A stretch of 64,000 nucleotides of DNA from Kiloniella laminariae DSM 19542 (GCF_000374005.1 NZ_KB893135.1:280545-344544), one strand, 5' to 3'. Counted from the stretch's first letter, positions 13,884 to 45,214 are shown. Numbers and translations: made by a program. Notes: generated from the sequence alone by a model not told the origin.

Positions 13884-13957
13884 TCACCCGCAGAAAATAT
13901 TCACCGCGTCGCGCAGCATTGAGGCGGCGGTGGGGGTCGGTTCGCGTTCCCAGAGTT
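13884..13957 (-). repeat. Displaced 74-bp copy of the 3' end of the hom-like gene
   Basis: This stretch matches 14493-14566, the last 74 bases of the homoserine dehydrogenase-like gene, with one mismatch. It lies just beyond the 136-aa gene, so the two copies flank that gene as direct repeats. The stop codon of the 136-aa gene begins at its edge. The rest of the gap 13671-13955 is AT-rich and holds no gene. Confidence 0.85.
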
Positions 13958-14366
13958 ATGCACTCTCAACATATGGCATTACTCTGTAGTTAATCGACTT
14001 ACACAAGGCATAAGCGGGTGAAGATTGTAAGTCTTCACGTGTAAACGTTGAATCTGGATAGCCCCCAAACTCGACCCCGATGAAACCCGCAAATTGTAAT
14101 ATTTTAATACCATCTGAAATAACTTGGTTAGAAAGTTTGCGGCTCTCTTTCAACCCGTATTCTTCAACACCAACCAACGACACAAAAGCGCATACCCATT
14201 CGACATTCTCTTCATCTGAATAATCGCGGGTATTTATCAAGATGTTTAAAATAATCCCTGATCCCTCAGTATATCTTACTTCATACGACTGAACGACAGA
14301 ATCACAAAAGAACCAAAATCGCTTTAGAAACTGGTCATAGTCATTTACAACAATCAGATTGTCCAT
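13956..14366 (-). CDS. Unrecognised 136-aa protein within a repeat-flanked insert
   Basis: I do not recognise this small soluble protein. It has alternating beta-like and acidic segments ('YEVRYTEGSGIILNILI', 'NVEWVCAFVSLVGVEEY') and no signal peptide. It is AT-rich compared with the metabolic genes on both sides and lies between 74-bp direct repeats, so it is probably a recent insertion. Size and composition are reminiscent of immunity proteins of polymorphic toxins, but no toxin gene is nearby and this is only a guess. Confidence 0.6.
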   Translation of the reverse strand: MDNLIVVNDYDQFLKRFWFFCDSVVQSYEVRYTEGSGIILNILINTRDYSDEENVEWVCAFVSLVGVEEYGLKESRKLSNQVISDGIKILQFAGFIGVEFGGYPDSTFTREDLQSSPAYALCKSINYRVMPYVESA

Positions 14367-14492: not shown

Positions 14493-14566
14493 TCACCCGC
14501 AGATAATATTCACCGCGTCGCGCAGCATTGAGGCGGCGGTGGGGGTCGGTTCGCGTTCCCAGAGTT
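14493..14566 (-). repeat. 74-bp direct repeat, copy in the hom-like gene
   Basis: These are the last 74 bases of the homoserine dehydrogenase-like coding sequence, repeated at 13884-13957 with one mismatch. The gene keeps an intact end while the second copy is stranded beyond the inserted 136-aa gene, as seen when elements integrate into the 3' end of a gene. Confidence 0.85.
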
Positions 14567-15509
14567 TGTGGTACATGATGCCATAGATATCGCTGTGGAT
14601 CTCGACGCCCATTTCCCAGCCGTCACAATGGGCGAGGAAATCGTCTTTGGGCAGGGCCAGCGGCGCGACCGAGAGCTTGCCACCTTCGGCAGAAGCGACC
14701 AGTTTGTATACCTTGCCTTCATTCGCGGCGGCGGTGATCATGGCCGGGGTTATGTCGGTGATGCCTGCGACGGCGACGTCCTTCAGTCCCACTTTCATCC
14801 GCAGGATGGCATTGGCGATGATCACCAGCTTGTTGGCGGTATCCCAACCGCCGACATCCAGGCTCGGGTCAGTTTCGGCGATACCACGGCGCTGGGCTTC
14901 GGCCAGAGCGTCGTCATAGGAACGTCCTGTTGCCATTTCCCCGAGAATAAAATTGCTGGTGCTGTTAAAGATGCCGCGCAGGCGGCTGATATCCCCGGCG
15001 ATCATGTCGCGCCGTCCCATATTGATAATCGGCAGGCCGCCGCAGACCGTGGCGCTAAAGCCCAGCCCGGCACCAGAACGGGCAGCGAGTTCGTGCAGTT
15101 CATGATAGGCCAGCACCAGCGGCCCCTTGTTCGCCAGCACCACAGTGATGCCCCGGGCCAAAGCCTTGCGTGTGACCTCCAGCCCCGGTCCACCTGTTAC
15201 CAGATCCACCGGTGATGCTTCAAATACCAGATCGCAGTCCAGCGTCTCGATCAGCTCCACCATGGAACGCCCCGGCTGATAGCCCGGCAGGTCAGCGGTG
15301 GATTTCCCCGCCTGCTTGGCCGCAAGGATTTCTCGCGGATCGTACCCTTGCTCATCCTGGCTCGCGGCAACCCCGCGGCTGTCGACCAGCGCCACCAGAC
15401 GGATTTCCACCTCGTGATCCTGCTGCAGACGGTCTTTTTTATCCGCCAGAATGGTCATGAGATGGCGGTTGACGCTGCCCAGCCCCACCAGTGCTGCTCG
15501 AATAATCAT
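14493..15509 (-). CDS. Homoserine dehydrogenase-like NAD(P) oxidoreductase
   Basis: This 338-aa enzyme has the N-terminal Rossmann motif 'ALVGLGSVNRHLM' and the catalytic-domain pattern of homoserine dehydrogenase: 'ANKGPLVLAYHEL', 'GGLPIINMG' and 'FNSTSNFILGEM'. There is no C-terminal ACT domain. I chose ATG 15509, which has AGGGGGAAAAAG upstream; the longer frame adds 48 unlikely residues. Such short stand-alone forms occur in catabolic clusters as well as in threonine synthesis. Its neighbours here (DapA-family lyase, DAO oxidase) favour the former. It is the first gene of the cluster. Confidence 0.85.
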   Translation of the reverse strand: MIIRAALVGLGSVNRHLMTILADKKDRLQQDHEVEIRLVALVDSRGVAASQDEQGYDPREILAAKQAGKSTADLPGYQPGRSMVELIETLDCDLVFEASPVDLVTGGPGLEVTRKALARGITVVLANKGPLVLAYHELHELAARSGAGLGFSATVCGGLPIINMGRRDMIAGDISRLRGIFNSTSNFILGEMATGRSYDDALAEAQRRGIAETDPSLDVGGWDTANKLVIIANAILRMKVGLKDVAVAGITDITPAMITAAANEGKVYKLVASAEGGKLSVAPLALPKDDFLAHCDGWEMGVEIHSDIYGIMYHKLWEREPTPTAASMLRDAVNIICG

Positions 15510-15763
15510 GCTTTTTCCCCCTGTTACAGAATTCGGATAAACCGATTTATCTGTCTTCCTTGTCTGCCTGCCCAGTAAAGCGGCTTCTGATAAAAGCATC
15601 TCGGCACAAGCTTTCTCCCGAACAAAAATGCACCAGGGCTGCCAGGATCTCAACAGAAATTCTGACAGCCCTGATCATACAGGCCTGGCTTGATTATCCC
15701 GTTCAGCAGGGGGAAAGAACCGCAGTAATCGCGTCCAATCCTGCCCGCGCCAACTCTCCCGCT

Positions 15764-40950: not shown

Positions 40951-41709
40951 CTGACCCAATATCAATCCTATATTATCTGCACAAGCCCCAGGAGTGGCAG
41001 CACTCTTTTGTGCCGACTTTTGGCCGCGACAGGAAAATCCGGTGTGCCGGACTCCCATTTCCACGAACCATCGGTTTCGGCATGGATGGAAGATTTCGGA
41101 TTGCAGGATGACCAGTATCCCAGCGAGAAAGAACAACTGACCGCTGTTTTTGCTGCCGCGCATGCTTATGGAACTGGCAGCAGCGACATATTCGGATTGC
41201 GCCTCCAACGACACAGCTTCGACTTCTTGATGCAAAAACTCGATTGTTTGCATCCAGGTCTTTCGACGGATGCAGAGCGCCTTCACACCGCTTTCGGACA
41301 CACTCTATTCATCCATCTGACACGCCCAAACAAACTTGAACAGGCTATTTCCCGCCTCAGGGCAGAGCAGTCCGGCCTCTGGCACAGAGCAGCAGACGGG
41401 ACAGAACTGGAACGCCTTTCTGCACCTCAGGAGCTTAGCTATGATGCAGTATCAATCGCCCGTCATATCACCGACATGACGCTGGCTGACGAGAATTGGA
41501 AATCCTGGTTTGACCGTGAGGGTATTACCCCCATGCGAATTACCTACGATGAACTTTCCCGCGATCCATCGGCAATTCTTTCGGGAATACTCGAAGAACT
41601 CGGTCAGGACAGCTCAATTGCCAAAGATATTACCCCGCCAACAGCCCGACTGTCCGATGAAATCAACCGCTCTTGGGCCGAACGGTTCCGGGGCGAGAAC
41701 AAAGGATAA
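40951..41709 (+). CDS. Stf0-type sulfotransferase with CTG start
   Basis: The PAPS-binding 5' loop 'YIICTSPRSGSTLLCRLL' is read only if translation begins upstream of the nominal TTG 41008. The frame has no ATG, GTG or TTG in the right place; CTG at 40951, giving L-T-Q-Y-Q before the loop, matches the usual start position in the family. The rest, 'SHFHEPSVSAWMEDFG', 'RLQRHSFDFL', 'FIHLTRPNKLEQAIS' and the C-terminal 'ITYDELSRDPSAI', fits Stf0, known for trehalose 2-sulfation. The protein is 252 aa. The acceptor here is unknown. Confidence 0.83.
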   Translation: MTQYQSYIICTSPRSGSTLLCRLLAATGKSGVPDSHFHEPSVSAWMEDFGLQDDQYPSEKEQLTAVFAAAHAYGTGSSDIFGLRLQRHSFDFLMQKLDCLHPGLSTDAERLHTAFGHTLFIHLTRPNKLEQAISRLRAEQSGLWHRAADGTELERLSAPQELSYDAVSIARHITDMTLADENWKSWFDREGITPMRITYDELSRDPSAILSGILEELGQDSSIAKDITPPTARLSDEINRSWAERFRGENKG

Positions 41710-41764: not shown

Positions 41765-41796
41765 CCCATCCTTCCGCTTTTGCCTGCCTGCATTTT
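41765..41796. repeat. 32-bp direct repeat, left boundary of AT-rich insert
   Basis: It is identical over 32 bases (CCCATCCTTCCGCTTTTGCC and onward) to 44545-44576. To its left is ordinary GC-rich sequence; to its right the AT-rich insert begins. Confidence 0.9.
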
Positions 41797-41798
41797 GT

Positions 41799-44111
41799 TT
41801 AATAATTTAACGCTGGGTAAAAAGCAGGATTAAGAATATACTCCAAAGTGTTTCTATTTTTATCTGACAATACTTTTATTAATCGCATGTCATACCCGAC
41901 ATCAAAAATGAATTTTGCAGGATTTGCATCAAACTTTATCCCAATAAATCCATAGTATAGTAAAAACTGTATAATCTTCTCGACTCTATCATTTGGAACA
42001 TCAGCACTACTAATTATGTTTCTCAGGCTCTCTTCCGTAAACGTATTTCCTTCACCAATAAAATAATAAATCAAAGATGTTTCAGCACCAACGATGTCGG
42101 TAAGCTCTTGATCTGCCTCCGTAATCAAATCCAAAGAAAATGCTCTCAGCCCCTTTTCCAAATCATCTTCACTAATCCGTTCATGGCCCAAATTCACAGC
42201 AAAACTGCGACAATGGCCAATTATTTTCAAGAGATTACGTGGTCTCATCAAAGATCGCTCAATTAAATATTGTGAACTTTCCTCTCCTTTATAATGAGAA
42301 ATACAAATTTGGGGCCAAACAAGCTCAAACTCGGTACCCTCAGATAACTGACCTTGAACAAGTCGTCGACGTAGCATTTCTCTCAAGAGATCTGGCTCAG
42401 TCCAATCAAGAACGGCACGGCTCTCTTTACCATAGTCGGCAGAAACCTCGACTAAAAGCTGATATACATCATTTCTAACAAATACGACACAATGGAAATC
42501 GTGGTCATTAGATTGCATTTGCCGTTGAATTTTTCGAGCAGCATCAATCAAGCATCTTAATATTAAAACATCACTAGAAGAGATACCATGCATTGACCAC
42601 CCTTTATCCAAGTTATCAAAAAGAACCCAGACAGATTTTTTAAATTTAAGATAATTAGACAGCACTTCTCGCACATCACGAATATTATGTTTATGGATTA
42701 GCTCTGTCACTTCAGTCGAAGTTAATCTTTGATCAGAATTTTTACTAAATTTTTTCTGGAACTCTGCAGCTAAATCTTGAGACAATGATAAAAGGCGCTC
42801 AGAAAAATCACCTTCTCCGGCATCACCACTCTCATATACTTCCTGCATACGACGATATGGCTCATATAGGTTTTGATCACGAACGTGACGCTCCTTATCC
42901 TTTTCTAATAGCTTATAGCATATTTCAAGATAAAGAATGTACTCAAAGAACGCCGTGATAAGATGCGTTTTGGCTCCTTCAGCAAGGAAATCAAGTACAT
43001 CCTCTTTCAACCGGATAAGCTGATATCCCTCGGGTTTTAAATCAACGACAATATTCTGGATCTGTGCTCTTTTTTCGTCGCGCAGTTGTGAAAAAAGAGC
43101 TGTTTTACCCGCCCCTTTCCGACCAACAACAAGATTAACTTCTCCCCGGGAAGCGCGTCCGAATTGATCAGTCCGTAAAAAATAATTTGCTAGCGTCTGA
43201 AATTCATTCTCAGCAATAGGGTCACCAATAGACAAATTAGATAAAAAATTACCTTTTGGAAGTTTGATTGGCGTTTGAAGTTGAAGTCTTTCAGTCACTT
43301 CCAATGCCAATTCTGTTATATGATCCGCAATCTCATCTCGACTACGAAACGTCTTAACGAAATCTCTAACATCAAGAGGCGCTGGCCCTTCATCTGACTG
43401 TAAAACCAGTGTAACCTTCTCTAAAGATATCCCAAGACCAGCTACGAAAGCTGCACGAATATTATGAATATCATAGTCGGCAAAACTTTCCGATAACAAA
43501 GGAATAACAACCCCTAAAGAATTAGCTACTTCATCAATAGCTTTTGTTGCTGCTAATCGGACTTCTTCTACAGGAATGAAGCTCTTAAATTTTAACCTTG
43601 CCTTCTTTATACTAGCCGTTATGGACAACATAGCTTGGCCAGAGGTAGGCGTTTGCAACAAGTATACAGCAGTATTTTGCTTTGAATTCTTATTAATCAT
43701 TATAGGATTTGAATTATCCAACCTAAGAAGTATATCAGCTAATTCTTCTTGGTCAGAATACTCAACGAAACCCAAGGTATCAAAAATCCCAATTTTATTA
43801 GCCTTTTCAATGCAGCCTTTAAAATTAGCATTTCGAACTAAATATACTCTTTTTCCCAACCCTATAGCGTAACCAATCTCAAAAGTGACATTGAAGTTCA
43901 TCGTCGTAATATCAGCGATTAAGATCTCAGAATTATTAATTGTTTTAAATATTGGGTCGATTAAAGCTCTGCCTGAGATATCGTTTTCAACCCACGTATG
44001 AATGGATAAATCCTTACGTTGCTGGGCCACCAAACTTTGTGCACCGCGAATTGCGCTACCTACCTCATTATGCGTTGAAGCATAGGCAAAAAATGCGTTT
44101 ATTAATGGCAT
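41799..44111 (-). CDS. TIR/NDT-like domains fused to a P-loop ATPase (Sll1717-like)
   Basis: This 770-aa protein has three parts. Residues 1-130 resemble the TIR/nucleoside 2-deoxyribosyltransferase fold: 'NAFFAYASTHNEVG', then 'ADITTMNFNVTFEIGYAIGL' with Glu78 at the NDT catalytic position. Residues 145-280 look like a second, more divergent domain ('RAAFVAGLGISLEKVTLVLQ'). The rest is a P-loop ATPase with Walker A GRKGAGKT (330-337) and Walker B near 498 ('VWVLFDNLDKGW'), as in the Sll1717 family. Such fusions are typical of antiphage or cell-suicide proteins. It is AT-rich and repeat-flanked. ATG 44111 has no clear ribosome site. Confidence 0.78.
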   Translation of the reverse strand: MPLINAFFAYASTHNEVGSAIRGAQSLVAQQRKDLSIHTWVENDISGRALIDPIFKTINNSEILIADITTMNFNVTFEIGYAIGLGKRVYLVRNANFKGCIEKANKIGIFDTLGFVEYSDQEELADILLRLDNSNPIMINKNSKQNTAVYLLQTPTSGQAMLSITASIKKARLKFKSFIPVEEVRLAATKAIDEVANSLGVVIPLLSESFADYDIHNIRAAFVAGLGISLEKVTLVLQSDEGPAPLDVRDFVKTFRSRDEIADHITELALEVTERLQLQTPIKLPKGNFLSNLSIGDPIAENEFQTLANYFLRTDQFGRASRGEVNLVVGRKGAGKTALFSQLRDEKRAQIQNIVVDLKPEGYQLIRLKEDVLDFLAEGAKTHLITAFFEYILYLEICYKLLEKDKERHVRDQNLYEPYRRMQEVYESGDAGEGDFSERLLSLSQDLAAEFQKKFSKNSDQRLTSTEVTELIHKHNIRDVREVLSNYLKFKKSVWVLFDNLDKGWSMHGISSSDVLILRCLIDAARKIQRQMQSNDHDFHCVVFVRNDVYQLLVEVSADYGKESRAVLDWTEPDLLREMLRRRLVQGQLSEGTEFELVWPQICISHYKGEESSQYLIERSLMRPRNLLKIIGHCRSFAVNLGHERISEDDLEKGLRAFSLDLITEADQELTDIVGAETSLIYYFIGEGNTFTEESLRNIISSADVPNDRVEKIIQFLLYYGFIGIKFDANPAKFIFDVGYDMRLIKVLSDKNRNTLEYILNPAFYPALNY

Positions 44112-44283
44112 TTGAATATCCAAATCACATAAAACTGATCAATCAATCAACTATCTATGATGGATATTAGCTCTTAACATTATCGCTATACAAGAAGAAG
44201 AAGTCGCGAATGAATGTTTTGAGGAAAATTACCATTTCATAATATTTCAGCACATACACACCTGCAACCAACAGCAGATAGAA

Positions 44284-44329
44284 AGAGCCTCTTCATATTT
44301 AAGATATTCACACTAAACAAAGAGGCTCT
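44284..44329 (-). terminator. Hairpin inside the AT-rich island
   Basis: AGAGCCTCTT and AAGAGGCTCT form a 10-bp stem around a 26-base loop. It overlaps the end of the possible small gene and precedes the ATPase gene. It could be a terminator or attenuator of that gene. Confidence 0.45.
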
Positions 44330-44498
44330 CTTCTCCTGCAAGCATTACCTCGCAAGTATCATTTTCGCCTCCAAGATTCGAAATCCTAATTTTTAATCCC
44401 CTACAGATATAATTCATTTCAATAATCCATAGCGAATTTAAAGATAATAGCCTGATTAATCTTACGGTAAAAAGTATCACGCACGAGCACAATAACAT
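44313..44498 (-). CDS. Possible small protein in the AT-rich island
   Basis: A 61-codon frame lies upstream of the ATPase gene on the same strand. The first half is hydrophobic and the second ('LKIRISNLGGENDTCEVMLA') looks soluble; a shorter form may start at an internal ATG. I do not recognise it. Its end overlaps a hairpin. If real, it could be a partner of the ATPase, but codon evidence is weak. Confidence 0.3.
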   Translation of the reverse strand: MLLCSCVILFTVRLIRLLSLNSLWIIEMNYICRGLKIRISNLGGENDTCEVMLAGEESLFV

Positions 44499-44544
44499 TC
44501 CTTAACTTTCACACTAAGACTCTTGCCAAACCCAGGTCACGTCC

Positions 44545-44576
44545 CCCATCCTTCCGCTTTTGCCTGCCTGCATTTT
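44545..44576. repeat. 32-bp direct repeat, right boundary of AT-rich insert
   Basis: Identical to 41765-41796. To its right, normal sequence resumes. Confidence 0.9.
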
Positions 44577-44707: not shown

Positions 44708-45214
44708 TTATTCTGTTGTTTCGTCGAATTCCGTTACCGCGTCACCCCAGGCGTCGCTGAGGGATTGATAGGCGTCAGAGAAGCCTTTTTTGACCTCGTC
44801 CCAGGCATCGGCAGAGCTGTTTTTCCATTCGCCGTACCACTGGGCCAGTTCTGTACGCTGTTTGCGCAGGGCGCGGAGGCTTTCACGGGTCTGTTCCCGT
44901 GCTGCCTGATCCATCTCGTCCCAGTTTTCATCGATCCGGTTTTCCAGCCTGTCAATCTGCTGGTCCAGACTTTCAAGACCAGCTTTGGCCTCGGCCAGAG
45001 CCTCGTCGCGCTGTTCGGCGCTATAGCCCTTGATTGATTCCATCAACTCTGCCGCGTCCTGCTGGACCTCTTCCAACGTACCCTCACCTGCGACGGCCTG
45101 TTCAGCTGTCTGTTCAGGTGTTTGGGGTTGGGTTTGAGTCTGTGCCTGCGCGGGTAGAGCACCACCAAACAGCACGAGAAATCCGGCAACAGGTACCAGA
45201 GTATTAAACTTCAT
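44708..45214 (-). CDS. Secreted coiled-coil stress-type protein
   Basis: This 168-aa protein has a signal peptide ('LVPVAGFLVLFGGALPAQAQ', cut after AQA) and an all-helical, highly charged mature part. Its C-terminal segment 'ADAWDEVKKGFSDAYQSL' matches the C-terminus of the next gene ('DDAWKDMKTGMDAAWDTF'), as in the sll1863-type stress proteins. AGGAG precedes the ATG. Probably periplasmic. Confidence 0.78.
   Translation of the reverse strand: MKFNTLVPVAGFLVLFGGALPAQAQTQTQPQTPEQTAEQAVAGEGTLEEVQQDAAELMESIKGYSAEQRDEALAEAKAGLESLDQQIDRLENRIDENWDEMDQAAREQTRESLRALRKQRTELAQWYGEWKNSSADAWDEVKKGFSDAYQSLSDAWGDAVTEFDETTE

Follow-up and report, generated by a model that had tools for sequence, protein, structure and literature searches.

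The locus raises the question of how a single large gene came to lie between two perfect direct repeats, in AT-rich DNA and with no integrase to account for it. We examined it within a 64,000-nt stretch (the window) of a 4.44-Mb genome (G000), and compared it with a sister genome (G001) and with the remaining genomes of the genus.

The insert, its repeats and the empty site

The sequence CCCATCCTTCCGCTTTTGCCTGCCTGCATTTT was present as two perfect 32-bp direct copies, one to the left at 41765-41796 and one to the right at 44545-44576. The repeats had been predicted at these places, and the analysis confirmed that they are 100% identical and the only two genome-wide, no third copy being found in the 4.44 Mb when up to 3 mismatches were allowed. 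By chance, about 1e-9 perfect pairs of this kind, with the copies no more than 8 kb apart, would be expected in ~1.8 Mb. Between the repeats lies a segment of 2748 bp (41797-44544) that is absent from the sister genome and has a GC content of 37.3%, against 53.4% for the window, in agreement with the prediction of one large gene in AT-rich DNA.

The segment consists of one long gene and a 433-bp non-coding leader, both on the minus strand. The gene (41799-44111) encodes 770 aa from an ATG at 44111, or 774 aa from the alternative start TTG at 44123, and it ends with a stop codon 2 bp away from the left repeat. The leader (44112-44544) showed no similarity to a plasmid collection, and in a comparison with its own genome only its terminal repeat recurred. 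It contains a strong hairpin (44275-44340, minus strand; -28 kcal/mol, z = -4.5), which may be a terminator brought from the upstream gene of the donor, or an attenuator. A weak U tract follows the hairpin.

The island also proved to be self-contained and without an integrase, as predicted: its single gene has no recombinase domain (Pfam). Pfam found no transposase domain in the insert either, and the repeat search found no inverted repeat pairing its two ends. No tRNA was found, and Rfam gave chance-level matches only when the target site was searched for known RNAs.

The host gene to the left encodes an Stf0 sulfotransferase (41008-41709, plus strand) that is convergent to the cargo gene, and an 84% identical orthologue lies beside the empty site of the sister genome. 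The host gene to the right (44708-45214, minus strand) encodes a predicted secreted coiled-coil-like protein of 168 aa, and the duplicated 32 bp are located downstream of its stop codon. When the flanks were joined with one repeat copy between them, the sister genome aligned to the joined sequence without a break at ~85% identity. The 32 bp that are doubled in G000 occur once in G001, in a copy that differs from each of the identical G000 copies at 3 positions. The comparison of the whole window gave the same picture, with the alignment to G001 stopping at 41796 and restarting at 44546, the two parts overlapping by 31 bp in G001. The empty 32-bp site that was looked for in a related genome was found in this way, and its base-by-base alignment proves the earlier claim that the host sequence would join cleanly. 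The two flanking genes occur together in G000 and G001 only; the site could be inspected in these two genomes and is empty in one of them.

The same empty site would be left if the gene and its repeats were ancestral and G001 had lost both by slipped deletion between the 32-bp repeats. We regard this as very improbable, since no homologue of the cargo gene was found in the other genomes of the genus (0/8), the composition of the segment is foreign, and the repeat copies have stayed identical despite ~15% divergence between the species; loss would also leave the origin of the repeats unexplained. Taken together, the empty site, the foreign composition, the identical repeats and the absence of the gene from the rest of the genus make insertion here much likelier than loss from G001, and they back the predicted recent acquisition. 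A 2.75-kb foreign segment (leader and gene) entered the intergenic region between the sulfotransferase and secreted-protein genes in this lineage.

Domain architecture and predicted role of the cargo protein

The cargo protein is composed of an N-terminal NDT/DNPH1-like domain, a second TIR/NDT-like domain and an Sll1717-family P-loop ATPase. Residues 299-772 matched the Sll1717 P-loop ATPase model of NCBIfam (NF047389) with 305.5 bits against a cutoff of 75 and over its entire length (model 1-454 of 454), and they contain a Walker A motif (GRKGAGKT) and a Walker B-like motif (VLFDNLD). The protein differs from the family model in its additional N-terminal tandem of NDT/TIR-like domains. We found no literature naming Sll1717 or DS41.

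A profile search of solved structures matched the N-terminal 90 residues to DNPH1/Rcl at a marginal E = 0.004, with the Glu of the motif falling on the Rcl Glu, and the score for the NDT family in Pfam was 23.4 bits, below the gathering score of 28.8. The N-terminal motif reads ...ADIT..N.NVTFEIGYA.GLGK, and Glu77 (alignment numbering) was invariant in 10 homologues. The Glu motif is shared with the 2'-deoxynucleoside 5'-phosphate N-hydrolase DNPH1/Rcl and with the NDT family, but in the cargo protein a second domain and an ATPase follow in the same polypeptide. The pattern HN(I/V)RxxFxxG(L/I)xxG recurs in the second domain (~residues 140-290), with Ala, Thr, Val or Met replacing the Glu; we therefore read this domain as a degenerate copy, on motif inspection and not on structure. 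The structure prediction, made from a 4-sequence alignment, had a mean pLDDT of 36 and was too poor to use.

A TIR/NDT-type fold with a key Glu is likewise a feature of the TIR-like NADase immunity proteins, among them Swarozyc and Thoeris ThsB; in the cargo protein this fold is predicted, and the profile match to ThsB1 was weak. Swarozyc immunity involves a DUF4062 TIR-like NADase, and eukaryotic proteins place DUF4062 next to a NACHT ATPase (PMC13174449). In contrast, the cargo protein is not DUF4062 by Pfam and its ATPase belongs to a different family. The ATPase part was also weakly like DS41_1_antiphage (NF053860) and the PADLOC candidate PDC-M28C, with 38 and 26.5 bits, respectively, which is so far below the equivalog cutoff of 370 that the cargo protein is not a member of either. 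None of the libraries assigned a validated defence system to it.

Among the plasmid relatives of the gene, some had caspase/protease, HEPN/Toprim, AbiEi or toxin-antitoxin genes as neighbours and others lay in metabolic surroundings. No homologues were found in viral contigs, and phages gave two weak matches to the ATPase. The N-terminal domain was broken in two homologues, by an in-frame stop at a conserved Trp in R. johnstonii TP60 and by a frameshift, possibly a sequencing error, in a Rhizobiales MAG. Two broken N-terminal domains would be compatible with a costly effector.

By analogy with immune effectors of the TIR/NDT type that are gated by ATPases, such as the DUF4062 proteins (PMC13174449), the most likely role of the cargo protein is that of an abortive-infection defence protein, and we consider this role probable. 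We infer that such a protein may be ATPase-gated and hydrolyse a nucleotide or NAD. The Sll1717-type P-loop ATPase would sense infection and oligomerise, and the N-terminal DNPH1/NDT-like domain would then hydrolyse the nucleotide or NAD, with a binding or structural role for the second TIR/NDT-like domain that has no Glu. The original prediction of a defence-type ATPase gene therefore holds for the defence-like architecture (an Sll1717 ATPase with NDT/TIR-like domains), while an antiphage function is what this architecture would suggest.

Other inserts flanked by duplications

AT-rich inserts bordered by directly duplicated host sequence were also present at other sites, where the duplications had other lengths. 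A self-comparison of the window found a second insert 28 kb away, with a 74-bp direct repeat (62 bp perfect). The right copy (14493-14566) forms the 3' end, still intact, of a host gene (14493-15653) and has one copy in G001, and the left copy (13884-13957) duplicates this gene end. The segment between the two copies has 40% GC and its cargo is a single AT-rich ORF of 136 aa (13956-14366, minus strand) with no Pfam match, the stop codon of which straddles the left repeat boundary. The sister genome has the same gene end in single copy but ~4 kb of different DNA beside it, so this is not a clean empty site. In both inserts of the window the 3' end of the cargo abuts one repeat, with the stop codon 2 bp off or straddling the boundary.

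A scan for repeat pairs with AT-rich interiors gave ten pairs in 560 kb of contig C2 of G000 and 960 kb of contig C11 of G001, with AT-richness set by a GC threshold of our own choosing that 5.5% of random segments pass. The better cases were those left once paralogue arrays and a likely dispersed repeat had been removed. On C2, a 45-bp duplication (C2:131945) flanks a LysE exporter and an AsnC regulator, and a 243-bp direct repeat with 99.6% identity (C2:351541-353312) flanks a 1.3-kb insert with 35% GC and a 228-aa orphan. The sister genome has a different AT-rich insert of 2.6 kb in the same place as the latter, and C2:351541 is a better candidate insertion hotspot than the 32-bp site. On C11, the 3' end of a GNAT-like gene is duplicated over 117 bp (C11:604383-605296) on either side of an insert with a 209-aa orphan, and further duplications of 78 bp (C11:927254, with G000 near-contiguous) and 222 bp (C11:942170) were found. 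Across all these inserts the duplication lengths were 32, 45, 74, 78, 117, 222 and 243 bp.

Such lengths bear on the possibility of an assembly chimera, in which contaminant DNA would have been joined via a 32-bp overlap at a short k-mer size. The genome is a draft of 38 contigs, and 32 bp is near common k-mer lengths. However, the 45-243-bp duplications of the sister inserts fit no k-mer, the join lies inside a 561-kb contig, the estimated completeness and contamination are 100% and 0.11%, respectively, and the gene has its relatives in other alphaproteobacteria. A chimera is the least credible of the explanations considered here.

The insert at C11:604383 also showed where a second repeat copy comes from. 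For this insert G000 is empty at base resolution. The two repeat copies share 97% identity, clearly more than they share with the empty site of G000; both copies therefore carry the G001 allele, and the recipient's own sequence was the source of the second one. This argues against Campbell-type homologous integration of a circle that already carried the 32-bp (or a longer) host sequence beside the gene. Such a circle would yield exactly the order repeat-insert-repeat, RecA-type recombination is universal, and circle integration with host homology has been proposed for transposed Arabidopsis genes (PMC2869330), which makes it the main alternative with a precedent. It is nevertheless an unlikely one, as 32 bp offers little length for RecA-dependent exchange, and the allele on the circle would have to be that of this lineage.

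We excluded the candidates at C2:202922, C2:230805 (and its G001 counterpart) and G001:862237, as well as the tandem clusters around C2:217-220 kb and 253-256 kb, because they are arrays of paralogues or may be dispersed repeats. In both species, variable genes for polytopic membrane proteins (G000 C2:230805-232680 and G001 C11:711879-713257) share their 3' end (C-terminus ...APPAPQSNHDL), while upstream of it they differ in length and sequence. This locus looks like a gene-swapping array.

No duplication-flanked inserts were found in 240 kb of contig C35, 340 kb of contig C24 or 400 kb of genome G008, so the process, or its traces, is regional. Direct-repeat pairs of at least 24 bp within 8 kb numbered 17 in 560 kb of C2 and 21 in 960 kb of C11, and none were found in ~980 kb of C24 and C35 of G000 and C12 of G008. 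The chromosomal region of C2 and C11 is unusually rich in local duplications.

Attachment site or target duplication

The original prediction saw in the 32-bp repeats a hotspot that could be occupied by other cargo. A dedicated 32-bp integration site or hotspot was unsupported, as the neighbouring inserts differ from it in repeat length and sequence. The same difference weighs against site-specific integration, in which the repeats would be attL and attR and an integrase would have acted in trans or been lost. The precise borders, the perfect repeats and the intergenic site near gene ends are as in many integrative elements, and integrative islands with a tyrosine integrase and attL/attR share with this locus a precise insert between direct repeats and an empty site in relatives. 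Those islands have an integrase and att repeats, whereas here there is no integrase, no tRNA, no repeat common to the neighbouring inserts and no evident hotspot. The genome has only two tyrosine recombinases, both Xer-sized (328 and 343 aa) and encoded on C24, and a single large serine recombinase, encoded on C14; none of the three shares a contig with the insert. Large serine recombinases leave a core of ~2 bp, in contrast to the 32-bp repeats found here. We set the attachment-site reading aside because the 32-mer occurs at no other place in its own genome; in addition, the pattern of a 26-bp core of the repeat was absent from viral contigs, and a query of 121 bp spanning the left junction found nothing relevant in plasmids. 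On this evidence, integration at a specific site is improbable.

The original prediction had also named relatives with the gene but without the repeats as evidence against it, and such relatives exist. None of eight homologous loci with flanks (from Mesorhizobium, Devosia, Rhizobium, Ensifer, Ochrobactrum, Paraburkholderia and a Rhizobiales MAG; 45-65% identity or less) had a flanking repeat of >15 bp. The repeats therefore belong to the insertion event and not to the gene, and repeat-flanked mobility of the gene family was rejected, while the insertion itself stands. The other inserts, with their unrelated duplications of 45-243 bp, suggest in turn that the target was duplicated in the course of insertion, rather than there being a fixed att site. 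Lengths of 32-243 bp and unrelated sequences exclude both a single site-specific recombinase and a transposase with a fixed short duplication.

In our judgement, the event was probably a recent single-gene insertion with long target duplication, with an abortive-infection-type defence protein as its cargo. The duplication would be a product of the insertion step itself. In one route, foreign DNA would have been captured in a staggered break or a long single-stranded gap, with fill-in around it; in the other, a replication fork would have changed template to the foreign DNA and returned to the chromosome 32 bp behind the point it had left. Fill-in and template switch are favoured alike, and the data do not separate them. 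Neither would require Ku-dependent end joining, a dedicated integrase or a transposase, none of which is visible. Ku-based end joining was rejected, with Ku missing from all nine genomes of the genus (0/9).

Insertion with long target duplication was reportedly treated by Nobusato et al. in 2000 (Gene 259:99). It has been described in H. pylori around restriction-modification genes (PMC3031569, PMC1643837, PMC4978471). The H. pylori inserts share with this one the presence of the gene or genes in one of two related genomes against a single copy of the target in the other, the long direct repeats of variable length with no IS or integrase, and a cargo that is often a selfish or defence-type gene. 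They differ in carrying restriction-modification genes, where we found a single ATPase-type gene in an alphaproteobacterial host, and the two are likened by layout and not by duplication lengths. The cargo seen here was the Sll1717-type ATPase, the LysE exporter with its AsnC regulator, or orphans, and not restriction-modification genes. The association with restriction-modification genes is a common correlate of long-target-duplication insertion and not its definition.

A wider reading would be that the genus has an active route of single-gene capture that is free of integrase and Ku, makes target duplications of 32-243 bp, is concentrated in one region, can leave the 3' end of the cargo against one repeat and has brought in a defence gene. 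We put this forward tentatively, as a possibility that we would not yet expect to hold.

The insertion is a further case of a known but rarely described kind, and its recurrence in the same pair of genomes adds to its interest. It bears on how lone defence genes that lack an integrase or transposase pass from one genome to another. The identical duplication, the verified empty site and the sibling events provide clean junctions, a target for donor searches and a genetically simple test host. They also extend a pattern reported mainly for Helicobacter restriction-modification genes to another class of candidate immune gene and to another branch of the phylum.
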